Positions 1 to 13,411 of a stretch of DNA of 64,000 bases are shown here, piece after piece. A program made the translations under genes and the position numbers. Source of the stretch: Vicingus serpentipes (GTDB lineage Bacteria; Bacteroidota; Bacteroidia; Flavobacteriales_E; Vicingaceae); the NCBI RefSeq assembly GCF_007993035.1, contig NZ_VOOS01000004.1:1-64000 (forward strand), written 5' to 3'. Positions within the stretch are counted from its first letter, which is position 1, and every line of letters begins with the position of its first letter. Under the pieces are notes generated by a model. It saw only the letters and a program-made list of their open reading frames with translations, was not told the origin of the DNA and ran no database searches.

Positions 1-149
1 AGATATCCTGTTCCACTTGTTGGAATAGTAATTTCTGTTGAAGTGGAAGTTCCAGTATTGTCAGTTTTCCATGTTGTAATAAATTCATTTTGCGCAAATA
101 CAAAAGATATTGAAAATGTAACGAGTAATGTAAATAATAGTTTTTTCAT
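1..149 (-). CDS. BspA-like secreted surface protein, N-terminal fragment
   Basis: Partial gene: only the first 49 codons lie in the window and the rest is beyond base 1. It starts at ATG 149-147 with a clear signal peptide (MKKLLFTLLV...FVFA, cleavage before QN). The mature start reads FITTWKTDNTG followed by a Thr/Ser-rich stretch ending in TSGTGY. This opening is typical of Bacteroidota BspA-like (DUF285) leucine-rich repeat surface proteins, which often carry a T9SS sorting domain at the far end; that end is not visible here. A TAnnTTTG -7 element lies at 244-237 and an 18-bp box shared with the FG-GAP genes lies at 277-294. The family call is an inference from the N-terminus only. Confidence 0.7.
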   Translation of the reverse strand, partial: MKKLLFTLLVTFSISFVFAQNEFITTWKTDNTGTSTSTEITIPTSGTGY

Positions 150-236
150 TATGCTTAAGTTTAATTTGAGTACATTTTTGATTATTCAACTTTATTTTAA
201 AACCCATTAATAACATTGATAAAAAAATATTTGATT

Positions 237-244
237 CAAAAGTA
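237..244 (-). promoter_or_regulatory. -7 promoter element of the BspA-like gene
   Basis: On the minus strand this reads TACTTTTG, matching the Bacteroidota TAnnTTTG element, about 88 bases before the ATG. The same TACTTTTGAATCAAA sequence stands before both FG-GAP genes. Confidence 0.65.
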
Positions 245-276
245 TTTCTACTTTCCCTTAGTTGTATAATTTATAG

Positions 277-294
277 TGTGACAAAATCTTTACA
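277..294 (-). promoter_or_regulatory. Shared upstream box, copy 1
   Basis: The plus strand reads TGTGACAAAATCTTTACA, identical to boxes at 4855-4872 and 7347-7364 and close to 7869-7886. It begins 33 bases upstream of its -7 element. The ends (TGT...ACA) are inverted repeats. It is a candidate activator site; the regulator is unknown. Confidence 0.6.
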
Positions 295-688
295 CAAGGC
301 TAAAAACCTATAAATAAGGGGTTAAAATTATTTATTACTACCGTTATATGCAGCTTCAACCATTTTTAACCTATTATTATTTGTAGTAATAAATTTTATA
401 GTTTAGCTGAACCATCGCCTTTTTATTTTAAGCATTATTCTATGTAATTTGTTCTTGCAGCTCAACTCAAAAAGATAGAATTATTGTGACTAATAATGAT
501 TGTTTTTGAATTTGATAAAAGAGACCTAAAGATCATTCAAAAATAACCCATCCTCCAATTAGAATTTTGTGAGGAACTTGTACATCCTTTTAATAGAAAG
601 AAGTAAAATATCTATTCTATATTAAAAATCACAAACAAAGAAATTTTAGTGTTAATTGGACAGATGAACAGTTGATTATCAATAATAG

Positions 689-706
689 AAAAGGGTACCC
701 CCTTTT
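689..706 (-). terminator. Possible weak terminator
   Basis: An AAAAGGG / CCCTTTT stem with a 4-base loop overlaps the stop codon of the fragment at 705-962. On the minus strand it runs into a short T-rich stretch. It is weak, with a 7-bp stem. Confidence 0.3.
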
Positions 707-962
707 AAAGTTTATTTACCTTCCTTTTAAAAGTGTATTTGTCAGTATTAACTACGACAATGTATTCACCTTTTGAACCAGGCAATTCAATGTAATCAAA
801 ACCAATTTGACACGAATGATTCTGCTTATCAATCATAAGCTCACCAAGCAGATTATAAATTCTAATGCGCCTAATATTATCACTATTTTTTAATTTGATT
901 TTTAATGCCCCATAAGAAGGGTTAGGGTAAATTTCTAAATTATTGTCAGTTATTTCTTCCAT
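705..962 (-). pseudogene. Orphan T9SS type A sorting domain (gene remnant)
   Basis: This 85-codon frame is almost entirely a T9SS C-terminal sorting domain: it shows the entry motif EIYPNPSYG, then IRIYNLLGELM, GEYIVVVNT and a basic end (KRKVNKL). It has no signal peptide. An in-frame TAG lies four codons upstream of the first ATG, so nothing joins it to an exported passenger. A sorting domain without export signal and cargo cannot work in T9SS, so I read this as the 3' end of a decayed secreted-protein gene. Upstream sequence (963-1178) holds no recognisable coding remnant. Confidence 0.7.
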
Positions 963-1178
963 ACTAATAGTAAACTATCCTAAATAAAAAGAGTTAATAA
1001 TTTATTCATTATGTTAAAATATAATACAAGTTTTCTATAGGAAAAAGTATCGACTACTCAATATTCTACTTCAATCTTTAACTCTAAATTAAAAATGAGG
1101 AAACTAAACGAACATAAAATATAGATTCATGACAATCTTAATTTTAGTAATATTTACAGAACTAATTAATATTTTAAG

Positions 1179-2213
1179 TTATTGCTCAACCGATATCATT
1201 TTATGAATATCATCTTTTATAACCCCAATAAGTGTAGGCATAATTGTTTTTGGAAGCGTAATTACATCATATAACTCATTTATCATACCATCAATATGTA
1301 AATACTCTTCATATTGATTTGTTTTGATATTAAAAATTTCTAACCCACATGTAGGTTTTAGATTATTAGCTTTTATGTTATTTTCTAACTCAATATCTTT
1401 AAAAGATCTTTTTTCTCTATTTTTAGACATACCAACAACAGCATAATCACCTATAAAGTGAAGTCCTCTTAGGAATCCTGGAAAAAATGCAACTTTAACA
1501 AACTTTTTCTTTTCTTTATTAATAAAACCTAAATAACCTGTTCCAGCTTCTAACAACCACACCTGTCCATTATGAACTCTTGGTGAATGAGGAAGAGATA
1601 AACCTGAACAAATAACTTCGTTTGTTCGAACATCCATAACAATTCCACCATTATTTCTATGTTCTCGCCAACCATCTTTTTCATTAGAGGGACCAACCAT
1701 TGTTATATACGCTGCTTCTCCATTTTCCTCAGCCAACCCATTTAAATGACATCTATCTTCAGGGACAATTTCACTAATAAATGGAGGCTTCCATATCACT
1801 TTAAAACTATGGGTATCACTCACAGTTGCTAAACAATTAAACTGCGTATTTACAAAAATTGGACGGTCTTCAGCATCTACAATAATATCATGTGTATCAA
1901 TATTACCTGTTGTATAACTTAATTGGGGAATATAGAGTTTATCAATTCCTTTAAATTTTTGGTTTGGTAATAATGTATTCTCGAACCTCCAAATTTGAAA
2001 AATTGAACTCAACCACAACGTGTTATTTTTTAATGCCATACCCATGCATCTTACAAAAGTTCGCTCAGAAACATTCAGGCTTTTGTCTGCTTTCAACCCA
2101 AGTAAAAATATTTTACCGATTTCGTATGTAGTAAATCCGAGGCTACATTCGTTTTTGAATAGCCAATTTTCAAAGCCATCAGATTTCTTAAATTCATATC
2201 CATTATTACTCAT
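1179..2213 (-). CDS. DUF4915 / TIGR03032 family protein
   Basis: A 344-residue protein with the hallmarks of the TIGR03032 (DUF4915) family: LWLSSIFQIWRFEN near residue 70, HLNGLAEENGEAAYITMVG near 157, GWREHRNNGGIVMD near 183, and LPHSPRVHNGQVWLLEAGTG near 208. The length fits the family. There is no signal peptide or membrane segment, so it is probably cytoplasmic; the repeated strands suggest a beta-propeller. No biochemical role is established for the family. The ATG at 2213 lies 13 bases after the stop of the decayed gene at 2227-2637, so it could be read from the FG-GAP transcript upstream. I see no separate promoter element, and several decayed genes surround this intact one. Confidence 0.8.
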   Translation of the reverse strand: MSNNGYEFKKSDGFENWLFKNECSLGFTTYEIGKIFLLGLKADKSLNVSERTFVRCMGMALKNNTLWLSSIFQIWRFENTLLPNQKFKGIDKLYIPQLSYTTGNIDTHDIIVDAEDRPIFVNTQFNCLATVSDTHSFKVIWKPPFISEIVPEDRCHLNGLAEENGEAAYITMVGPSNEKDGWREHRNNGGIVMDVRTNEVICSGLSLPHSPRVHNGQVWLLEAGTGYLGFINKEKKKFVKVAFFPGFLRGLHFIGDYAVVGMSKNREKRSFKDIELENNIKANNLKPTCGLEIFNIKTNQYEEYLHIDGMINELYDVITLPKTIMPTLIGVIKDDIHKMISVEQ

Positions 2214-2226
2214 AGTTTTTGCAGAT

Positions 2227-2637
2227 TTAATTTACAATAATTCTAAAAGTTGCTTCTTCTGAAACAATCAAATATATACCAATTGGTAAAGAATTAATAG
2301 TTTTTGTTGATTTATATGATGTTATCAATTTTCCTTTTGTATCATATACTTCTATGTTGTTAAGTGTAAAACTAAAGTTTATGCTCCAAACTGCATCAGT
2401 GCTTTTATATATTTCACCTGGTTCAGTGCACAATACATAATATTTGTGTCACTTTTACAAGCTGTTATACATCTTACATGGGTTAATTGATCCATTATAC
2501 TGTCATCCCAATCATGATTTACAAGTGGTCCTATAGGTTCCCCCAACAGTTTTGCGATTGAACAGTATTTCTAGCGCTATTAAAAATTAGCGCTAGAAAT
2601 AACATGATCAAATATGAGCTTTTTTTAAGTTTAACAT
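2227..2637 (-). pseudogene. Decayed small T9SS secreted protein with frameshifts
   Basis: Read across three frames, this is one broken gene. ATG 2637-2635 overlaps the stop of the FG-GAP gene (TAATG) and gives MLNLKKAHI before a stop. One extra A in the A7 run (2615-2621) would join it to MLFLALIFNSARNTVQSQ, a signal peptide, followed by NCWG. At the G5 run near 2535 the frame shifts to EPIGPLVNHDWDDSIMDQ and on to ITACKSDTNIMYCALNQ. Near 2415 it shifts again to GEIYKSTDAVWSINFS (BNR-repeat-like) and a T9SS sorting domain (IEVYDTKGKLITSY ... GIYLIVSEEATFRIIVN). All three breaks are single-base losses. The product would be only about 135 residues and lacks the usual YPNP entry motif, so an internal deletion is also likely. 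Confidence 0.65.
2567..2600 (-). repeat. Perfect 13-bp inverted repeat
   Basis: ATTTCTAGCGCTA (2567-2579) and its exact complement (2588-2600) are separated by 8 A/T bases. It lies about 40 bases after the FG-GAP gene stop, inside the signal-peptide part of the decayed gene. There is no T-run after it, so it is a weak terminator candidate; it could act as an RNA-processing or 3'-end-stabilising hairpin. Confidence 0.55.
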
Positions 2638-4742
2638 TAGCTCACAATTATTTTGATTGTTTGTAATTCTGAAATTAAAAAGTACATTCCTTTAACTAAA
2701 CCATCTATCTGATCGGTTTCATCATAAGATTTTATTAGTTGACCAGTTGCTGAAAAAACCTTAACATTTTTAACCTTCTGATTCAAATAAATTACATCCC
2801 CACTATTTGATGGATTAGGAAATAAAGTAAGTGTGCTGTTCAAACTGTTTTCATAAACCCCTGTAGGACAATCTAATGCCAAGGTTATTGAATCGTTTAA
2901 AATTACACAAGATCCCGAAGGGTGAATTCCTTCAAAATATAGTGTTACTGCACCATTATTAACATCATCCAATGATGGATTATAAGAAGTTACAGCCACA
3001 GAATCATTACTAAATGTTCCTGTACCAGAACTACTCCATGCTAATTGAGTTACATTACCTTCAACTTGACCATTTAACTGTACTGGGTTGCTGTCGCAAA
3101 AAGTAGTGTCTACTCCTGCATATAAAGAGTTAGTAGCAGTATCTTTTTCACTATTTAATATATAAGAAGTACCTGCATAAGTCATAAGTTGATCGCTGTA
3201 TCCATCATAATTATAATCTCCAACAATATCTGTTACGAAATATTTATTCCCTGGCAACACAATTCCACCATGTGCTTGAACTAAATCATTAATATCAATT
3301 GAATCCAACATTTGCTCGCAATTGCCATAAACTACTTGCGAAACATTTTCACGAGAAACAGAAGTAACCAAAGTAAGTTGAAGATCTGTTGTTGTAAAAA
3401 ATACATCGTCTAATCCATCTCCATTTAAATCACCAGCAGCGCCAATATCGGTATGACTATTCTGGAATATAATTTCATTTCCATAATTACCAACTATTTC
3501 ATAATCATATATAACAGCATTAAAACTAGAATTACCATATACTGTAAAAACTGTAGATATTGTGTCAGCATCATTGGTATGACTATCAGAATTGTCTGAA
3601 AACATTATATCATCATAACCATCTCCATTCACATCACCTGGCACACTAACATCCCAGCCGAAGACCCCCCCAGTTAGCCCACCTTGAGGAACAGTTTCTT
3701 CAATTTTAAATCCATCTGTACCGTTTAACATATTATCCCAATCAATTTGATTATTTACAAAACCTGTTGGACTTCCATACATTACTTGAATTTTATTGTA
3801 AGTTTGATCTGCAACTACAAGATCAGAAATGCCATCACCATTAATATCTCCAGAAGCAAAATCTGTTCCCCACTTATATCCGTTACTGTTACCGGTAGTA
3901 TGATTGAGTATTAACCCATCGTTCAAGGTCATATTATCCAGATTCACGATTGAATCAAATCCATTATTGCTGCCAAATAGAACAAATGATGGATGTTGAA
4001 CATAGTATTCTCTATAATAATCAAATACGGCTACATCATTAATCCCATCACCGTTAAAATCATCTAACGCTACGAAATCATCTGCAAATTGATACGATGA
4101 TGGTGCTATCATATGAAATCCATCTGCTGAGTCTAGTGCTGCAGTATAGATGGTATCATTAGCAAGTTGATCTGTTCCAAATATAACAAATGCGTCACTG
4201 GTACTGACAGTAATTCTTTGTTTACGACCTATTATATCATCCTTACCATCATTATTAATATCAGTAAAAACACAATCATATGCTTTATCTATAAAAAACC
4301 CATTTGTTCCATCTATATCAGCTTGATTTGTTGTAGTTAAACCATTTTGATCACCAAAGACAACATAAGCTCTTCCATTTACATCATTACTTTTCTTTTT
4401 TTCTCCAAAAAATATGTCTGTATAACCGTCTCCATTAAAATCTAAAGACCTTGGCTTTAGTAAATCTGGTCCATTGAATTCCGTTACTCTTGGAGAAGGA
4501 ATATTAACCTGAATAGTATCTTGTGCGCTAACAGGATTTGCTAACCAGGCTGTTAATACCACTGTAGAGATGTTTACTGCATAGCTTTTTTTAAATTTTA
4601 AAATTCTTTTCTTTAAAATTTCTATTTTTCTAAGGTCTCGTAGATATTTAGTTTTAGATTGTTGAAGTGATAATCTAGTTTTTAGTCTTGTATACTTTCT
4701 CAAAATCTTTAGCCATTGAACCTTTAACTCTATTTTTTTCAT
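2637..4742 (-). CDS. FG-GAP repeat protein with T9SS sorting domain, copy A
   Basis: A 701-residue secreted protein. Residues 1-52 are a long, very basic leader (about 20 Lys/Arg), followed by a hydrophobic segment 53-72 and a VSA|QD cleavage site. Seven Asp-rich FG-GAP/VCBS-type calcium loops follow: DFNGDGYTD (101), DINNDGKDD (161), DFNGDGIND (228), DINGDGISD (299), DVNGDGYDD (370), DLNGDGLDD (438) and a variant DYNYDGYSD (509). This is consistent with one seven-bladed propeller. A PKD-like domain spans about 543-625. A type A sorting domain (LFPNPSNSGD, residue 640 on) directs T9SS export and surface anchoring. The ligand is unknown; FG-GAP proteins usually bind surfaces or polysaccharides. 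It is a tandem duplicate of the gene at 5153-7234, with a nearly identical first 75 residues. Confidence 0.85.
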   Translation of the reverse strand: MKKIELKVQWLKILRKYTRLKTRLSLQQSKTKYLRDLRKIEILKKRILKFKKSYAVNISTVVLTAWLANPVSAQDTIQVNIPSPRVTEFNGPDLLKPRSLDFNGDGYTDIFFGEKKKSNDVNGRAYVVFGDQNGLTTTNQADIDGTNGFFIDKAYDCVFTDINNDGKDDIIGRKQRITVSTSDAFVIFGTDQLANDTIYTAALDSADGFHMIAPSSYQFADDFVALDDFNGDGINDVAVFDYYREYYVQHPSFVLFGSNNGFDSIVNLDNMTLNDGLILNHTTGNSNGYKWGTDFASGDINGDGISDLVVADQTYNKIQVMYGSPTGFVNNQIDWDNMLNGTDGFKIEETVPQGGLTGGVFGWDVSVPGDVNGDGYDDIMFSDNSDSHTNDADTISTVFTVYGNSSFNAVIYDYEIVGNYGNEIIFQNSHTDIGAAGDLNGDGLDDVFFTTTDLQLTLVTSVSRENVSQVVYGNCEQMLDSIDINDLVQAHGGIVLPGNKYFVTDIVGDYNYDGYSDQLMTYAGTSYILNSEKDTATNSLYAGVDTTFCDSNPVQLNGQVEGNVTQLAWSSSGTGTFSNDSVAVTSYNPSLDDVNNGAVTLYFEGIHPSGSCVILNDSITLALDCPTGVYENSLNSTLTLFPNPSNSGDVIYLNQKVKNVKVFSATGQLIKSYDETDQIDGLVKGMYFLISELQTIKIIVS

Positions 4743-4814
4743 AATACTTTAAGTTTTAATTTAATACTTCTATTTAGTAACTGTATTTAAACATTAGCTC
4801 AAAAATGTTTGATT

Positions 4815-4822
4815 CAAAAGTA
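4815..4822 (-). promoter_or_regulatory. -7 promoter element of FG-GAP gene A
   Basis: Minus-strand TACTTTTG (TAnnTTTG) about 72 bases before the ATG at 4742, inside the duplicated spacer. Confidence 0.65.
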
Positions 4823-4854
4823 TCATACACTCCCTCCATGTTCTATTTTTATGA

Positions 4855-4872
4855 TGTGACAAAATCTTTACA
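4855..4872 (-). promoter_or_regulatory. Shared upstream box, copy 2
   Basis: TGTGACAAAATCTTTACA on the plus strand, 33 bases upstream of the -7 element at 4815-4822, identical in sequence and spacing to copies 1 and 3. Confidence 0.6.
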
Positions 4873-4961
4873 GAAACAATATTCAATTGATAATCAGCTA
4901 TTTAAAATGTAATATTATATTACACTCTTTAATTTTAATTAATTCCCATATTGAATTTCAA

Positions 4962-5153
4962 TTATTTAATTATCCAGCTTGAAATAGCTAAAAGCAAAAT
5001 TGATGAAAGAATAATATAGAAAACTAAACCAATATTAAATTGTGATCTGTTAAGGTTTATGCTAACAATACCTATTGATATTATTAATAAAACAAATAGA
5101 CAAATAATCGATATAAATGTATAAACAGATAGGAATACATTTAAGTTTAACAT
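4962..5153 (-). pseudogene. Truncated DoxX-like membrane protein (3' half, chimeric start)
   Basis: A 63-codon frame matching the C-terminal half of the DoxX-like protein at 7454-7813: both share ISIICLF, GLVFYIIL, SILLL and SSWIIK. Its first codons (ATGTTAAACTTAAA) do not belong to DoxX. They equal the sequence just after the stop of FG-GAP gene A (2637-2624), so the start is borrowed from the flank by the duplication event. Its ATG overlaps the gene B stop as TAATG. Two membrane segments remain. It might still be translated by coupling, but the N-terminal half of the fold is missing, so it is most likely non-functional. Confidence 0.75.
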
Positions 5154-7234
5154 TAACTCACAATTATTTTGATAGTTTGTGAATTTACAACAACAACATA
5201 GATTCCTTTTGCCAAACCTTCTATTTTATTGGTTTCATTATAAGATTTAATCAATTGACCAGTTGCTGAATATACTCTTACATTACTTACGGTTTGATTT
5301 AAATAAATTACATCTCCACTATTTGATGGGTTCGGAAATATACTAAGTATATTGTTTGAATCATCTTCATTTATCCCTGTAAAACAATCAAAGTTCAAGG
5401 TTATTGAATCATTGAAACTTATACATGTTCCAGACGGATGAACTCCTTCAAAATACAGTGTTACTGATCCATTATTAATGTCATCAGTTGAGGGGTTATA
5501 AGAAGTTACAGCCACTGAATCATTACTAAATGTTCCTGAACCTGAACTCATCCAACTTAATTCATTTACGTTCCCAACAATTTGCCCATTTAATTGTGCT
5601 ATATCGCCAACACAAACAGACGTATCAGCACCAGCAGAAATTGAGTACGTTGCTTCATCACTATGCAATATATATGATTTTCCAGAATAAGTAGTAAGTA
5701 GATCATTGTGTCCATCATAATTATAATCTCCAACAATATCTGTTATAATGTATTTATTCCCCGGCAACACAATTCCACCATGTTCTTGAACTAGGTAATT
5801 TACATCAATTAAACCCATAATTTGCTGACAATTGCCATAAACTACTGTTGACATATTACTTCTAGAAACATAAGGAACTGTCGGAAATCCTAAACTTTTT
5901 AATGTAAATATAACATCGTCTAATCCGTCTCCATTTAAATCGCCAGCTGCGCCAATATTGGTGTGACTATTTTTAAAAATAATTTCATTTCCATAATTAC
6001 CTGCTATGTCATTATCATATATAACAGCATTAAAACTAGAATTACCATATACTGTATAAACTGTAGATATTGTGTCAGCATCAAGGGTCCAACTATCAGA
6101 ATTGCCTGAAAATATTAAATCATCATAACCATCTCCATTCACATCTCCTGGCACACAAACCTCTTGGGCGAATAAGCCAGTTAGCCCACCTTGATTAATA
6201 GTTTCTTCAATTCTAAATCCATCAGTACCGTTGAACATATTATCCCAATCAATTTGATTATTTGTAAAACCTGTTGGACTTCCATACATTACTTCAATTT
6301 TATTGTAAGGTTCATTTGCAACTACAATATCAGAACTGCCGTCACCATTAATATCTCCAGAAGCAAAACTTGTCCCCCAATAAGTTCCTTGACCTGAGGT
6401 AGGATTTAGTATCAACCCATCGTTCACTGTCATATTATCCAAATTCACGATTGAATCAAATCCATTATTGCTGCCAAATAGAACAAATGAAGTATGTTGA
6501 ACATAGTATTGTCTGTGATAATCAAATACAGCTACATCATTAATCCCATCACCGTTAAAATCATCTAATGCTAAGAAATCATTTGCAAAACCATATGACG
6601 AAGGAGCAATCATATGAAATCCATCTGCTGAGTCTAGTGTTGCAGTATAGATAGTATCATTAGCAAGTTGATTTTTTCCAAATATTACAAATGCGTCACT
6701 GTTACCGACAGTAATTCTGTTTTTACGACCTATTATATCATCTTTACCATCATTATTAATATCAGCAAAAACACAATCATATGCTTTATCTATAACAAAC
6801 CCATTTGTCCCATCTATATCGGCTTGATTTGTTGTAGTTAAACCATTTTGATCACCAAAAACAACATAACCTCTAGCGTTATTCCCTGTAGAGCTACCAA
6901 AAAATATGTCTGTATAACCGTCTCCATTAAAATCTAAAGATCTTGGATGTCGGAAATCTGGACCACTGAATTCCGTTACTCTTGGAGACGGAACATTAAC
7001 CTGAATAGTATCTTGTGCGCTAACAGGATTTGCTAACCAAGCAGTTAATACCACTGTAGAGATGTTTACTGCATAGCTTTTTTTAAATTTTAAAATTCTT
7101 TTCTTTAAAATTTCTATTTTTCTAAGGTCTCGTAGATATTTAGTTTTAGATTGTTGAAGTGATAATCTAGTTTTTAGTCTTGCATACTTTCTCAAGATCT
7201 TTAGCCATTGAACCTTTAACTCTATTTTTTTCAT
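5153..7234 (-). CDS. FG-GAP repeat protein with T9SS sorting domain, copy B
   Basis: A 693-residue paralogue of the gene at 2637-4742. The basic 52-residue leader and signal segment are the same except for a T/A change at residue 18. Seven Asp-rich calcium loops occur in the same order (for example DFNGDGYTD, DINNDGKDD, DINGDGSSD, DLNGDGLDD, DYNYDGHND). A PKD-like domain is followed by a sorting domain starting IFPNPSNSGD and ending KIIVS. Differences from copy A cluster in loops between blades, for example in the stretches after FG-GAP loops 1, 4 and 5, which may change what is bound. The stop overlaps the start of the DoxX remnant (TAATG). It is predicted to be exported by Sec and T9SS to the cell surface. 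Confidence 0.85.
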   Translation of the reverse strand: MKKIELKVQWLKILRKYARLKTRLSLQQSKTKYLRDLRKIEILKKRILKFKKSYAVNISTVVLTAWLANPVSAQDTIQVNVPSPRVTEFSGPDFRHPRSLDFNGDGYTDIFFGSSTGNNARGYVVFGDQNGLTTTNQADIDGTNGFVIDKAYDCVFADINNDGKDDIIGRKNRITVGNSDAFVIFGKNQLANDTIYTATLDSADGFHMIAPSSYGFANDFLALDDFNGDGINDVAVFDYHRQYYVQHTSFVLFGSNNGFDSIVNLDNMTVNDGLILNPTSGQGTYWGTSFASGDINGDGSSDIVVANEPYNKIEVMYGSPTGFTNNQIDWDNMFNGTDGFRIEETINQGGLTGLFAQEVCVPGDVNGDGYDDLIFSGNSDSWTLDADTISTVYTVYGNSSFNAVIYDNDIAGNYGNEIIFKNSHTNIGAAGDLNGDGLDDVIFTLKSLGFPTVPYVSRSNMSTVVYGNCQQIMGLIDVNYLVQEHGGIVLPGNKYIITDIVGDYNYDGHNDLLTTYSGKSYILHSDEATYSISAGADTSVCVGDIAQLNGQIVGNVNELSWMSSGSGTFSNDSVAVTSYNPSTDDINNGSVTLYFEGVHPSGTCISFNDSITLNFDCFTGINEDDSNNILSIFPNPSNSGDVIYLNQTVSNVRVYSATGQLIKSYNETNKIEGLAKGIYVVVVNSQTIKIIVS

Positions 7235-7306
7235 AATACTTTAGTTTTAATTTAATGCTTCTATTTAGTAACTGTATTTATAACATTAGCTCAACAATGT
7301 TTGATT

Positions 7307-7314
7307 CAAAAGTA
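7307..7314 (-). promoter_or_regulatory. -7 promoter element of FG-GAP gene B
   Basis: Minus-strand TACTTTTG, 72 bases before the ATG at 7234, same setting as for gene A. Confidence 0.65.
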
Positions 7315-7346
7315 TCATACACTCCCCCCATGTTCTATTTTCATGA

Positions 7347-7364
7347 TGTGACAAAATCTTTACA
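7347..7364 (-). promoter_or_regulatory. Shared upstream box, copy 3
   Basis: TGTGACAAAATCTTTACA on the plus strand, 33 bases upstream of the -7 element at 7307-7314. Confidence 0.6.
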
Positions 7365-7453
7365 GAAACAATATTCAATTGATAATCAGCTATTTAAGAT
7401 GTAACATTATGTTACACTCTTTAATTTTAATTAATTCCCATATTGAATTTCAA

Positions 7454-7813
7454 TTATTTAATTATCCAGCTTGAAATAATTAAAAGCAAAATTGATAAAA
7501 GAATAATATAGAAAACCAAACCAAGATTATACTCAGATCTATAAAGGGTGATACCTATTATGCCTACTGTCTGAATTAATAAAAAAAATAAGCAAATTAT
7601 TGATATATAAGGATAAGTATCGAGGTATAATGGAAGCACAGCAAAAACACTGCTAATTATCTCAATAACACCTATTAGTTCAGTAAAATTTGACTTAATA
7701 TTACTAACCCATAACCCAAAAAAGATTTCAAGCTTGTGCTTTGGATATATTAGTTTTAGTAATCCAACAACAAAATATGCCAACAACATTATTAGGTTTA
7801 TACTTTCCATCAA
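7454..7813 (-). CDS. DoxX-like small membrane protein
   Basis: A 119-residue protein with four predicted membrane segments (about residues 5-20, 43-62, 67-87 and 95-117). The first helix is followed by a KLIYPKHKLEIFFG stretch and a GVIEI motif in helix 2, as in the DoxX-like (PF13564) family. These are short inner-membrane proteins of mostly unknown role, some linked to redox or quinone functions. A -7 element lies only 16 bases before the ATG, and a diverged copy of the shared box stands at 7869-7886. It lies upstream of FG-GAP gene B in the same direction, but gene B has its own promoter. It is the intact parent of the truncated copy at 4962-5153. Confidence 0.65.
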   Translation of the reverse strand: MMESINLIMLLAYFVVGLLKLIYPKHKLEIFFGLWVSNIKSNFTELIGVIEIISSVFAVLPLYLDTYPYISIICLFFLLIQTVGIIGITLYRSEYNLGLVFYIILLSILLLIISSWIIK

Positions 7814-7829
7814 TTATTTTCAATTGACT

Positions 7830-7837
7830 CAAAAGTA
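7830..7837 (-). promoter_or_regulatory. -7 promoter element of the DoxX-like gene
   Basis: Minus-strand TACTTTTG, 16 bases before the ATG at 7813, giving a very short leader. Confidence 0.55.
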
Positions 7838-7868
7838 AAATTAGGGGGCGGGTACTCCTAAAAATTAA

Positions 7869-7886
7869 TGTTACAAAATATTAGCA
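7869..7886 (-). promoter_or_regulatory. Shared upstream box, copy 4 (diverged)
   Basis: The plus strand TGTTACAAAATATTAGCA matches the other boxes at 14 of 18 positions and begins 32 bases upstream of the -7 element. The conserved spacing supports it despite the mismatches. Confidence 0.45.
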
Positions 7887-7890
7887 GTAC

Positions 7891-9667: not shown

Positions 9668-12600
9668 TTACTTTAATTCTATTTTCACCCCAATCACACA
9701 AACATCATCCAGCTGCTCAAGATCGCCCATCCAGTTTTCAAATGCTTCATTAATAATTTCGTGTTGTTTATTCATAGACTCTTGCTGTATGCTTAACAAT
9801 AGCTTCTTGAAGTTGGCAGGTTTAAACTTCTTTCCTTTTTCTCCTCCAAACTGGTCCTGAAAACCATCCGTAAAAATGTAAATGGAATCCCCTTGTTCCA
9901 ACGTAAACTCATGTGTGGTATATGGCATTGGATTATCAACTTTACCAATGGCCTGTTTGTTGGGTTTTGTTTCTAGCAGTTCCTCATTGCGAATGATCCA
10001 TATCGGGTTATTGGCTCCTGCCCATTGCAACTTGTTTCCATGCAATGCACATAAAGAAATATCCATTCCATCTTTTACATCTTCTTCACTTTTTTCAAAT
10101 TCCTGAATTACGATTTCCCTTGTCTTATTTAGAATTTCTCCAGGGTCTGTTAGTCCGTTCTCTCTTACGGAACGATTGAGTCCATTATTACACACAACAC
10201 TTACCATGGCGCCTGGTACACCATGGCCAGTGCAATCTGCCGCTGCGAATAACACCCTTCCTTCAGAAGGTTCCATCCAATAGAAATCCCCAGCCACAAT
10301 GTCTTTGGGCTTGTAGAGAATGAAGGATTGATCTAAATATTGCTTAACTAGTTTTGTTGGAGGTAAAATTGCTGATTGGATACGCTTAGCGTAGTTAATA
10401 GAGTCTAGAATTTCGGTGTTCTTTTTTTCCAGTTCACCGTATGCTTTATCCACGTATGCTTTTTGTCTTTCAACTTCTTCCTTTTGCTCCCTAATTTCAT
10501 AGGTAGCGTTATCCACTTCTATTTCCAGTTCTTTTTGGCGTTTTTTGAGTTTATCTGTGCGCCACCGTACAAAAACAAAAACTAACAACAATGCTCCCAG
10601 AGCATACATTGTAAGGGCCCACGAGGCGTACCACCAAGGCGGATGAATGGTAAAAGTATATTCAAACGGCTCACTCCACTCACCGCTTTCTCCAATAGCA
10701 AGTACTTTAAACGAATAAGTACCATATGGGAGGTTTCGGTAATCTGCTTTGGCTTCAAGGCTGGGTTGGCTCCAGGTGGTGTTGAGCCCTTCCATTATAA
10801 AGCTGTATTGTATTTTATGTGATGCGCTCCAATCTATGGCTGCAAAATGAAAGGTAAGGTGGTTTTTATCATAAGGCAACTCTAAATTCAATGGGTAATT
10901 TTCAAAACGCTGTACACCATTAAACACTATTTCATTGCCCAGACTATCTGTTATATTTCTATAGTCTATGAATTGCTCATTAATATCAATTTGCCTTAAA
11001 TAAACCGCTGGCGGTTTTGTTGATGAACCAAATTTATTTAAATCCAGCATGGTTAGGCTTTTACCACTGCCCCACCATATACGGTTTTTACTGTCTAAAC
11101 AAACACTGTTGGCAAAAAAATCCATGCCTTTTAAACCGTCATTTTTTTTAAATAAATTTAGGGTATAGCTAACTTTTTTTGTCTTAGAAACAGCGCTAAT
11201 AACATAAATAAAGTTTGTAAGGCCACTTTCTGTACTCATCCATATATGACCGCTTTTATCTTCCAGTATTGACAAAACACTATTGTTGGATAAGCCTTCT
11301 TTTTCTGTAAAATGCGTAAAGGTTTTCCCATTGTACATGCTCGCACCTCCGCCAGAAGTGCCGAACCAAAGGTTTCCGCTTTTATCTTCCAGTATTGACA
11401 AAACACTATTGTTGGATAAACCTTCTTTTTCTGTAAAATGCGTAAAGGTTTTTCCATTGTACATGCTCGCACCTCCGCCATAAGTGCCGAACCAAAGGTT
11501 TCCGCTTTTATCTTCCACTATAGACAAAACACTATTGTTGGATAAGCCTTCTTTTTCTGTAAAATGCGTAAAGGTTTTCCCATTATACATACTCACACCT
11601 CCGCCATAAGTGCCGAACCAAAGGTTTCCGCTTTTATCTTCCAGTATTGAAAAGACGGTATTGTTGGATAAACCTTCTTTTTCTGTAAAATGCGTAAAGG
11701 TTTTCCCATTGTACATGCTCACACCTCCGCCAGAAGTGCCGAACCAAAGGTTTCCGCTTTTATCTTCCAGTATTGACAAAACACTATTGTTGGATAAGCC
11801 TTCTTTTTCTGTAAAATGCGTAAAGGTTTCTCCATTGTACATGCTCACACCTCCGCCAGAAGTGCCGAACCAAAGGTTTCCGCTTTTATCTTCCACTATT
11901 GACAAAACACTATTATTGGATAAGCCTTCTTTTTCTGTAAAATGCGTAAAGGTTTTCCCATTGTAAATGCTCACACCTCCGCCAGAAGTTCCGAGCCAAA
12001 GGTTTCCGCTTTTATCTTCCACTATTGATAAAACACTATTGTTGGATAAGCCTTCTTTTTCTGTAAAATGCGTAAAGGTTTCTCCATTGTACATGCTCAC
12101 ACCTCCGCCAGAAGTGCCGAACCAAAGCTTTCCGCTTTTATCTTCCACTATTGATAAAACACTATTGTTGGATAAACCTTCTTTTTCTGTAAAATGCGTA
12201 AAGGTTTCTCCATTGTACATGCTCACACCTCCACCATCAGTTCCGAACCAAAGGTTTCCGCTTTTATCTTCCACTATTGATAAAACACTATTGTTGGATA
12301 AGCCTTCTTTTTCTGTAAAATGCGTAAAGGTTTTCCCATTGTACATGCTCACACCTCCACCATCAGTTCCGAACCAAAAGTTTCCGCTTTTATCTTCCAC
12401 TATTGATAAAACACTATTGTTGGATAAGCCTTCTTTTTCTGTAAAATGCGTAAAGGTTTTCCCATTGTACATGCTCACACCTCCACCATCAGTTCCGAAC
12501 CAAAGCTTTCCGCTTTTATCTTCCACTATTGATAAAACACTATTGTTAGATAAGCCTTCTTTTTCTGTAAAATGCGTAAAGGTTTTCCCATTGTACATGC

Positions 12601-13411
12601 TCACACCTCCGCCATAAGTGCCGAACCAAAGGTTTCCGCTTTTATCTTCCACTATTGACAAAACACTATTGTTGGATAAGCCTTCTTTTTCTGTAAAATG
12701 CGTAAAGGTTTTCCCATTATACATGCTTACACCTCCACCATAAGTGCCGAACCAGAGGTTTCCTCTTTTATCTTCCAGTATTGACTTGACATAGGAAGAA
12801 GCCATTCCCTGGTCCACGTCTAAGTACTGCATGTTGTTAATGGCATCGTCTTTAAAGCGTGGGGGTAAGGCAGCTGTGGGTTGGGCTTGAGTGGTTTTTA
12901 TTTTTTTTGCATTGGAAGGGATTGTCACCCCCGTTTTTATAGTGTCGCCTAATGAGTTTATAAGGTGGTGTAGGGTATCTTTTTGTGCAATTTCATCTAA
13001 AAGAATAGTGGTTAATGAGTTGTGGTTTACGGGGATGACGGTTAGGTTAGTTGGTACTTTATATACGTTATCGTAGGCGTTGTAGATGCTATCCGGTGGG
13101 TTAGCCGGCACATTGATTGGCATGGAAACACTGTCTGGATGAATAACTTTTCCGGTTACCGGAATAGGGATTCCAGAAATTAGGGAGTCTCCGCTTTCCA
13201 GAATAATGGGTTGAATGCTGTTGCCTGTTAATGCGTTTAGAGTATAGCCATTGTAAGGGTTTGCCTCATTTTTTTGTGGCAGCGGTAACAGTGGCACCGG
13301 TTTTTCGTCTACTGTTTTCTTACTGGTACATGCTGCCAGAAATAGAAGTACTAAAAGATATATTAGTTTTGTTTTCAATTTGTTATGTTCAAAGTGATAC
13401 AACGACAACAT
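9668..13411 (-). CDS. Lipoprotein sensor: Reg_prop propeller, Y_Y_Y domain, SpoIIE phosphatase
   Basis: A 1,247-residue signalling protein. A lipobox (LLFLAACTS, Cys near residue 28) ends the signal sequence. A low-complexity Pro-rich region follows. Residues about 205-735 contain twelve near-identical 42-residue Reg_prop blades (core NLWFGTYGGGVSMYNGKTF) plus a degenerate thirteenth. A Y_Y_Y domain lies at about 880-930 (MEGLNTTWSQPS ... GTYSFKVLA), then a membrane helix near 945, a coiled coil (960-1020), and a PP2C-like SpoIIE phosphatase (about 1040-1245) with metal-binding Asp motifs GDFYWMEP, ADCTGHGVPG and FTDGFQDQFGG. This resembles the sensor half of hybrid two-component systems, but the output is a Ser/Thr phosphatase, probably acting on an anti-sigma-factor antagonist that is not in the window. 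The lipobox plus a downstream membrane helix is odd; the N-terminus may act as an uncleaved anchor. Confidence 0.85.
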   Translation of the reverse strand: MLSLYHFEHNKLKTKLIYLLVLLFLAACTSKKTVDEKPVPLLPLPQKNEANPYNGYTLNALTGNSIQPIILESGDSLISGIPIPVTGKVIHPDSVSMPINVPANPPDSIYNAYDNVYKVPTNLTVIPVNHNSLTTILLDEIAQKDTLHHLINSLGDTIKTGVTIPSNAKKIKTTQAQPTAALPPRFKDDAINNMQYLDVDQGMASSYVKSILEDKRGNLWFGTYGGGVSMYNGKTFTHFTEKEGLSNNSVLSIVEDKSGNLWFGTYGGGVSMYNGKTFTHFTEKEGLSNNSVLSIVEDKSGKLWFGTDGGGVSMYNGKTFTHFTEKEGLSNNSVLSIVEDKSGNFWFGTDGGGVSMYNGKTFTHFTEKEGLSNNSVLSIVEDKSGNLWFGTDGGGVSMYNGETFTHFTEKEGLSNNSVLSIVEDKSGKLWFGTSGGGVSMYNGETFTHFTEKEGLSNNSVLSIVEDKSGNLWLGTSGGGVSIYNGKTFTHFTEKEGLSNNSVLSIVEDKSGNLWFGTSGGGVSMYNGETFTHFTEKEGLSNNSVLSILEDKSGNLWFGTSGGGVSMYNGKTFTHFTEKEGLSNNTVFSILEDKSGNLWFGTYGGGVSMYNGKTFTHFTEKEGLSNNSVLSIVEDKSGNLWFGTYGGGASMYNGKTFTHFTEKEGLSNNSVLSILEDKSGNLWFGTSGGGASMYNGKTFTHFTEKEGLSNNSVLSILEDKSGHIWMSTESGLTNFIYVISAVSKTKKVSYTLNLFKKNDGLKGMDFFANSVCLDSKNRIWWGSGKSLTMLDLNKFGSSTKPPAVYLRQIDINEQFIDYRNITDSLGNEIVFNGVQRFENYPLNLELPYDKNHLTFHFAAIDWSASHKIQYSFIMEGLNTTWSQPSLEAKADYRNLPYGTYSFKVLAIGESGEWSEPFEYTFTIHPPWWYASWALTMYALGALLLVFVFVRWRTDKLKKRQKELEIEVDNATYEIREQKEEVERQKAYVDKAYGELEKKNTEILDSINYAKRIQSAILPPTKLVKQYLDQSFILYKPKDIVAGDFYWMEPSEGRVLFAAADCTGHGVPGAMVSVVCNNGLNRSVRENGLTDPGEILNKTREIVIQEFEKSEEDVKDGMDISLCALHGNKLQWAGANNPIWIIRNEELLETKPNKQAIGKVDNPMPYTTHEFTLEQGDSIYIFTDGFQDQFGGEKGKKFKPANFKKLLLSIQQESMNKQHEIINEAFENWMGDLEQLDDVCVIGVKIELK
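11250..12761 (-). repeat. Twelve tandem 126-bp repeats coding propeller blades
   Basis: The unit is exactly 126 bp (42 codons), seen from the anchor CCGCTTTTATCTTCCA recurring every 126 bases. Copies differ at few positions. In protein order the residue after WFGT runs Y,Y,D,D,D,S,S,S,S,Y,Y,S, in blocks, and the residue after YNG is K or E. Near identity points to recent copy-number change by recombination or slippage; every change keeps the frame. Confidence 0.9.

Follow-up and report, generated by a model that had tools for sequence, protein, structure and literature searches.

A direct-repeat box before type IX secretion cargo genes of Vicingus serpentipes, a candidate operator of a TPR-LuxR one-component regulator

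The first 64,000 nucleotides of contig NZ_VOOS01000004.1 (here C4; RefSeq assembly GCF_007993035.1) of Vicingus serpentipes, a member of the Vicingaceae in the Bacteroidota, are referred to below as the window. Near its start, an 18-bp box stands upstream of four genes, among them genes for surface proteins exported by the type IX secretion system (T9SS), and close to a gene for a TPR-LuxR protein (Table 1). A sequence-only reading of the window had taken the box for an activator site with the TPR-LuxR protein as the nearest candidate. Support for this proposal comes from relatives of the protein, whose genes mostly lie beside T9SS cargo genes and near a similarly built site that keeps the same distance from a -7-like element. 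The box probably serves as operator for a one-component regulator that spans the membrane. The most likely candidate is this TPR-LuxR protein, which would activate its surface genes.

The box, its promoters and its genes

Read in gene direction, on the minus strand, the box is TGTAAAGATTTTGTCACA. A sequence scan reproduced the three exact copies of the window and the fourth, which agrees at 14 of 18 positions; shuffled sequences lead one to expect 0.33 matches in the window with at most three mismatches. The fixed distance before TAnnTTTG also stands: the exact copies have a gap of 32 bp, and copy 4 has one of 31 bp. In the whole genome (2,918,678 bases, or 2.92 Mb, in 34 contigs) there are four exact boxes, three in the window and one on contig C6, and in each case the gap to TACTTTTG is exactly 32 bp. 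Up to three mismatches, the genome holds 8 matches, against 9 for a reversed control pattern, and TAnnTTTG was not found in the 122 bases examined downstream of the remaining four. A sequence model of the four promoters recovers those four at E <= 1.6e-20, while the next match in the genome has E = 0.158. Copy 4 is absent from the 36 matches of this model up to E = 10, a first look in which 150 of 5987 candidates were scored and weak members could be missed. With only four exact boxes and no convincing member added by the promoter model in that first look, a regulon scattered over the genome is rejected. The surface-protein regulon first envisaged is retained insofar as genes for secreted surface proteins follow the exact boxes, but as a small set in which three of the four exact copies stand beside the regulator gene.

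In sequence terms, the element is less a plain 18-mer than a direct repeat of 11-bp period with imperfect halves, TGTAAAG-ATTT-TGTCACA. The TAnnTTTG element lies at -12 to -5 in Flavobacterium psychrophilum, according to the part of the study available (PMC9723704). The operator would therefore occupy about -62 to -43, upstream of and near RNA polymerase, a position that suits activation. Two further promoter features were considered and set aside. The extended -7 region TACTTTTGAATCAAA was discarded as a second specific element because similar stretches precede other starts (for instance at loci L131, L134 and L136). Likewise, a missing -33 element is no proof of activator dependence, as none of 21 TAnnTTTG sites in the window has a clear one.

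The genes behind copies 1, 2 and 3 and the C6 copy agree with the earlier claim that secreted surface proteins lie downstream, whereas the DoxX-like membrane protein behind copy 4 is not T9SS cargo. All three complete genes behind exact boxes encode T9SS cargo, including a 672-aa protein with a sorting domain on C6; this is far above background, even though two of the three are duplicates. Across the genome, the T9SS sorting domain has 79 matches, 77 over the cut-off and 2 below. The copy 1 gene is presumably BspA-like, as the earlier reader had it; no family match settles the label.

These genes are not widespread. At E <= 1e-20, the FG-GAP proteins are found in this genome only, among 46 family genomes, and the C6 protein is found in 4 of the 46. 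The TPR-LuxR protein is without a close homologue in the same set (best other match 176 bits, self-match 1159). The box-associated genes and the TPR-LuxR gene are accessory, in keeping with the absence of the box from related genomes. Matches to the box with at most two mismatches occur in 16 of 60 genomes, the own genome included, and TAnnTTTG follows within 82 bases at 0 of 17 foreign box loci (L010-L026), so that conservation of the 18-mer as such is rejected. The promoter model gives matches at E <= 0.05 in 23 of the 46 family genomes, again counting the own one, the best foreign value being 1.1e-4 against 1.1e-22 for the own genome. Three further genomes have relatives of the C6 gene (L152-L154), at which no comparable box was found. 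A relaxed scan of named genomes for box plus -7 element returned 20 stretches, which are mostly chance since 12 lie outside Bacteroidota. One lead is L104, from Flavobacterium sp. NKUCC04_CG, where a 17/18 box (7406-7423, minus strand) stands 31 bp before TAAGTTTG, ahead of a gene for a 502-aa protein without an NCBIfam match. About 6.5 kb from it, positions 1-845 (plus strand) encode the C-terminal part of a membrane protein with a helix-turn-helix (HTH; 43.8 bits with the HTH model).

Table 1. Box copies, -7 elements and associated genes in the window and on contig C6
Feature	Position	Strand	Remarks
Secreted protein gene behind copy 1, first 49 codons	1..149	-	runs off contig end
-7 element of copy 1	237..244	-	TACTTTTG
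Box copy 1, exact	277..294	-	operator in register 276-295; foreign-matrix rank 9
Gene for FG-GAP protein (T9SS sorting domain) downstream of copy 2	2637..4742	-	79% identical to copy 3 protein
-7 element of copy 2	4815..4822	-	TACTTTTG
Box copy 2, exact	4855..4872	-	operator in register 4854-4873; foreign-matrix rank 4
Gene for FG-GAP protein (T9SS sorting domain) downstream of copy 3	5153..7234	-	
-7 element of copy 3	7307..7314	-	TACTTTTG
Box copy 3, exact	7347..7364	-	operator in register 7346-7365; foreign-matrix rank 3
DoxX-like membrane protein gene, behind copy 4	7454..7813	-	25.3 bits, just under Pfam cut-off 26.3
-7 element of copy 4	7830..7837	-	TACTTTTG
Box copy 4, 14/18	7869..7886	-	operator in register 7868-7887, ends 30 bp before -7 element; foreign-matrix rank 33/127,962
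TPR-LuxR regulator, 548 aa	7891..9537	-	N-terminal hydrophobic stretch, TPRs, internal transmembrane stretch 353-383, C-terminal GerE helix-turn-helix 490-544
C6 copy of box, exact	C6:672-689		TACTTTTG at 32 bp; ahead of T9SS cargo gene

TPR-LuxR clusters in other genomes and in the window

The TPR-LuxR protein belongs to the LuxR/GerE family, with a GerE match of 27.6 bits against a Pfam cut-off of 23.5. The genome encodes three GerE proteins over the cut-off, this one included, and one Crp-type HTH protein. Searches with Pfam and NCBIfam returned no kinase or receiver family in the protein, except for a weak match of the NCBIfam FimS model to the TPR region alone (55 bits, cut-off 600). Judged by its domains, the protein is a one-component regulator, having a sensor, a predicted membrane helix and a DNA-binding domain in one chain with neither kinase nor receiver. 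Among the matches listed, 12 foreign loci with 14 TPR-LuxR genes have an alignment reaching at least position 540 of 548. In the 15 aligned proteins (14 foreign and that of the window), TPRs and one internal hydrophobic stretch are found throughout, a GerE match at E <= 0.001 in 10, and an N-terminal hydrophobic stretch above threshold in 5.

The neighbours of these foreign genes are commonly T9SS cargo. For 11 of the 14, an adjacent gene carries the sorting domain over the cut-off, downstream of the regulator gene in nine cases (L162 twice, L163, L164, L165, L166, L167, L170 at the 2275-4020 gene, and L171) and divergent from it in two (L169, and L170 beside the 5670-7298 gene). The three exceptions are L161, where a contig end cuts the neighbour, L160, which has a FISUMP-type secreted protein without the domain, and L168, with none. 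On the opposite side of the regulator, six genes were scanned; five are without a sorting domain (L160, L163, L166, L167 and L171), and the only one with it, at L162, lies inside a run of such genes. The arrangement in the window differs in that the DoxX-like gene adjoins the regulator and the T9SS genes come after it. T9SS cargo genes and two TPR-LuxR genes stand in alternation at L162 (1986-12291), and the 3' end of the regulator gene has been copied together with promoter and operator ahead of a further cargo gene.

The stretch that separates regulator from cargo gene often contains a direct repeat with a period of 11, for instance TGTAACCC-TTT-TGTAACCC at L167 and TTGTCGCCC-TC-TTGTCGCCC at L170. 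The half-site differs among the TPR-LuxR loci. Over 18 regions, the mean best repeat score (S) is 7.17 at period 11, compared with 5.67-6.28 at other periods from 7 to 25. A stricter test also required a -7-like element (at most two mismatches) 28-33 bp past the repeat, and compared 16 target regions beside TPR-LuxR genes, that of the window among them, with 135 control intergenic regions from the same loci and from control loci. The latter are twenty further TPR-protein loci with one HTH, of another type (L188). A score of 7 was reached by 7 of 16 target regions and 1 of 135 controls (Fisher 2.8e-7), and a score of 6 by 10 of 16 and 15 of 135, respectively. Shuffled target regions gave 0.07 regions at score 7 on average and at most 2, and other periods from 9 to 21 gave 0 or 1 of 16. 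The single control match lies in the L162 cluster, as the promoter of another T9SS gene, and shares the half-site TTGCTAACG of that cluster. As far as the sequences tell, L162 is thus like the window in placing one operator type ahead of several cargo genes.

The ten foreign elements scoring at least 6 were built into a matrix. In register, these repeats end 30 or 31 bp before a -7-like element, the same distance as for the window copies; three of the elements are exact TAnnTTTG and seven have one mismatch. Applied to the 127,962 positions of the window, the matrix ranks copies 3, 2, 1 and 4 at 3, 4, 9 and 33. A score of at least 5 combined with an exact -7 element 30-31 bp away leaves just copies 1-4 in the window and, in the 12 kb of C6 scanned, the C6 copy alone; 47 other genome pieces (147,972 bases, some overlapping) yield nothing. 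Eleven other spacing pairs produced one match altogether. Copy 4 stands where relatives carry their repeats. The promoter model, which misses it, had suggested that copy 4 is pure chance; the foreign matrix makes chance less likely.

The window cluster and its surroundings contain further features. An 85-aa open frame at 705-962 (minus strand) is barely more than a T9SS sorting domain (44.1 bits) and probably the remnant of a cargo gene. Within the surface-gene cluster, a TIGR03032/DUF4915 protein (1179-2213, minus strand; 407 bits) has its own TATATTTG and no box. Positions 4875-5150 look by eye like a copied piece of the DoxX-like gene region, forming the distal end of the roughly 2.49-kb tandem duplication. 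Beyond the regulator gene, 9668-13411 (minus strand) encodes a 1247-aa protein with near-identical 42-residue repeats of the SLNNSVLSIVEDKSGNLWFGT type, whose C-terminal part resembles by eye a SpoIIE-type phosphatase. The start of contig C4 cuts the copy 1 gene, and that of C6 falls within the 3' part of a T9SS gene, of which the first residues resemble a BspA-type end. With the first 41 aa of C6, one annotated BspA protein was matched at E = 8; a sequence search with the N-terminal piece of the copy 1 gene gave no match. That both contig ends belong to one BspA-like gene is suggestive only. If they do, all boxes fall in one cluster behind the TPR-LuxR gene.

A predicted operator and its rival explanations

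Direct observations are where the sites lie and how they are spaced, the order of the genes, and the fact that relatives again combine regulator, repeat and cargo gene. A mechanism that would accommodate them begins with the TPR domain, which may detect a periplasmic signal. Its state would be relayed through one transmembrane helix and a coiled coil to the GerE helix-turn-helix, and two GerE domains would bind head to tail on two TGTnA half-sites set 11 bp, or one helical turn, apart. Bound at about -62 to -43, the regulator could make contact with RNA polymerase and so turn on the neighbouring genes for T9SS surface proteins. The position of the site and the comparison with relatives suggest binding and point to activation, not repression. 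Topology, signal and the assignment of this very regulator as the binder are likewise predictions.

Several results weigh against this reading. Ten of the 12 foreign loci come from one genus, and the score thresholds were chosen after inspection. The window repeat is imperfect and is not picked out by the plain repeat test (the copy 4 region has S = 4); copy 4 is the weakest copy, yet it stands directly behind the regulator gene. When the matrix elements were left out in turn they scored 3.1 to 23.4, and the matrix is loose because three of the ten fell below 5. Co-variation between the recognition helix and the operator (r = 0.18-0.31 for 20-mers, p = 0.03-0.13 by subset) was no better than in a TPR-region control, and its half-site version was not significant. 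The operators of both L162 genes and those of L168 and L169, picked by eye, entered this co-variation test alone and neither the counts nor the matrix.

Common descent could by itself account for part of the pattern, if the four promoters are copies of one ancestor in which the box was kept without marking a specific regulator. By their sequences, the four promoters do share ancestry. Copies 2 and 3 belong to a tandem duplicate, and copy 1 and the C6 copy are homologous both in the spacer (24/33) and in about 50 bp upstream of the box (33/51), each at p = 0.001, the floor of the shuffle test. The sequence-only reading had held that the intervening sequence of copy 1 differs from that of the others. 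This is only partly right. It is true of an ungapped comparison with copy 2 (11 of 32 positions equal), but the gapped alignment shows weak similarity (21/34, p = 0.03, shuffle test), and the spacer of the C6 copy is homologous. However, the box is identical at 18/18 positions while the spacer drifted to about 60-75% (gapped), which is read as constraint on the box, and a function is indicated by foreign elements that agree with it in build and spacing. Descent alone is therefore a quite improbable explanation.

A different protein might also read the repeat. The E. coli pho box consists of two 7-bp TGTCA-type repeats with an 11-bp period, a likeness that would suit a core response regulator of the PhoB/OmpR type, with the TPR-LuxR gene a mere neighbour. 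Other regulators are indeed present in the genome, such as the two other GerE proteins above the cut-off. Were one core regulator responsible, however, more than four sites would be expected, and it would not explain why the repeat recurs beside TPR-LuxR genes with a varying half-site, so that this explanation, though the foremost of the rivals, is unlikely. More improbable still is an inverted repeat for a dimer of the CRP/FNR type, which the dyad-related outer bases (TGTnA...TnACA) and the one Crp-type HTH protein of the genome might suggest. CRP half-sites usually lie 6 bp apart, as in TGTGA-N6-TCACA, whereas those of the box are 8 bp apart and one is altered. Furthermore, the foreign elements are direct repeats, and a global regulator such as CRP should have more than four sites. 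The TPR-LuxR operator reading remains the preferred one.

Known systems and wider meaning

The nearest described logic is that of FimS/FimR in Porphyromonas gingivalis, in which a periplasmic TPR sensor controls surface-protein genes and FimR binds the mfa1 promoter region as an activator, as stated in the accessible parts of PMC11053733 and PMC1974823. FimS is a histidine kinase with a separate response regulator, whereas TPR-LuxR fuses sensor and DNA-binding domain, and the window protein, having no kinase domain in Pfam or NCBIfam, is not a two-component system of that type. The same excerpts mention no 11-bp repeat for FimR. Regulation is likewise tied to type IX secretion by PorXY-SigP of P. 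gingivalis, again judging by portions of the sources (PMC4800418, PMC8265659). That system acts on the secretion machinery via an extracytoplasmic function (ECF) sigma factor; the genes concerned here are cargo genes with an ordinary sigma-A-type -7 element.

Another comparison is with the triple-tyrosine/propeller-LuxR one-component regulators of Bacteroidota. They have another sensor domain but share the C-terminal membrane-HTH region, as seen in plasmid matches, and lie near genes for TonB receptors, glycosidases or surface proteins. Among plasmid relatives in Cytophagales, a plausible 11-bp repeat is uncommon: of 9 regions scanned, 3 have S >= 6 and 1 has S >= 7, counts that leave out the unannotated L196 and L199. 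On plasmids of Microscilla and Emticicia, 11-bp repeats stand before a fucosidase gene and a GH16 gene (L192, 4394-4697, and L197, 3213-3327, respectively), and they may extend the operator rule past this family. The pho box of PhoB resembles the window site in its two half-sites and 11-bp period. It differs in being read by another DNA-binding family and in replacing the -35 element, the window site being farther upstream.

No description of TPR-LuxR regulators of T9SS cargo, or of such an operator, was found in the literature searched, which comprised few subscription papers and some sources in part. The parts are of known kinds, and the combination with its fixed operator rule appears new. 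A broader proposal is that the TPR-LuxR family consists of cargo-dedicated regulators, each beside one or a few T9SS cargo genes and with its own version of the 11-bp repeat 30-31 bp before the -7 element. The TPR domain would perhaps sense the cargo or its export, and clusters would grow by duplication of promoter and operator, as in the window and L162. This generalization is tentative and, as a whole, somewhat doubtful.

In the papers and excerpts covered, work on T9SS regulation deals mostly with the secretion machinery, while this genome alone has 77 sorting-domain matches over the cut-off. With a regulator-operator-cargo rule legible in the sequence, one could predict sets of co-regulated cargo genes together with the regulator of each. 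The rule would also provide a defined promoter for studying activation from just upstream of a Bacteroidota sigma-A promoter, and a starting point for asking what periplasmic TPR sensors detect. The arrangement suggests that in such bacteria a set of secreted surface proteins may be controlled by a switch reserved for it.

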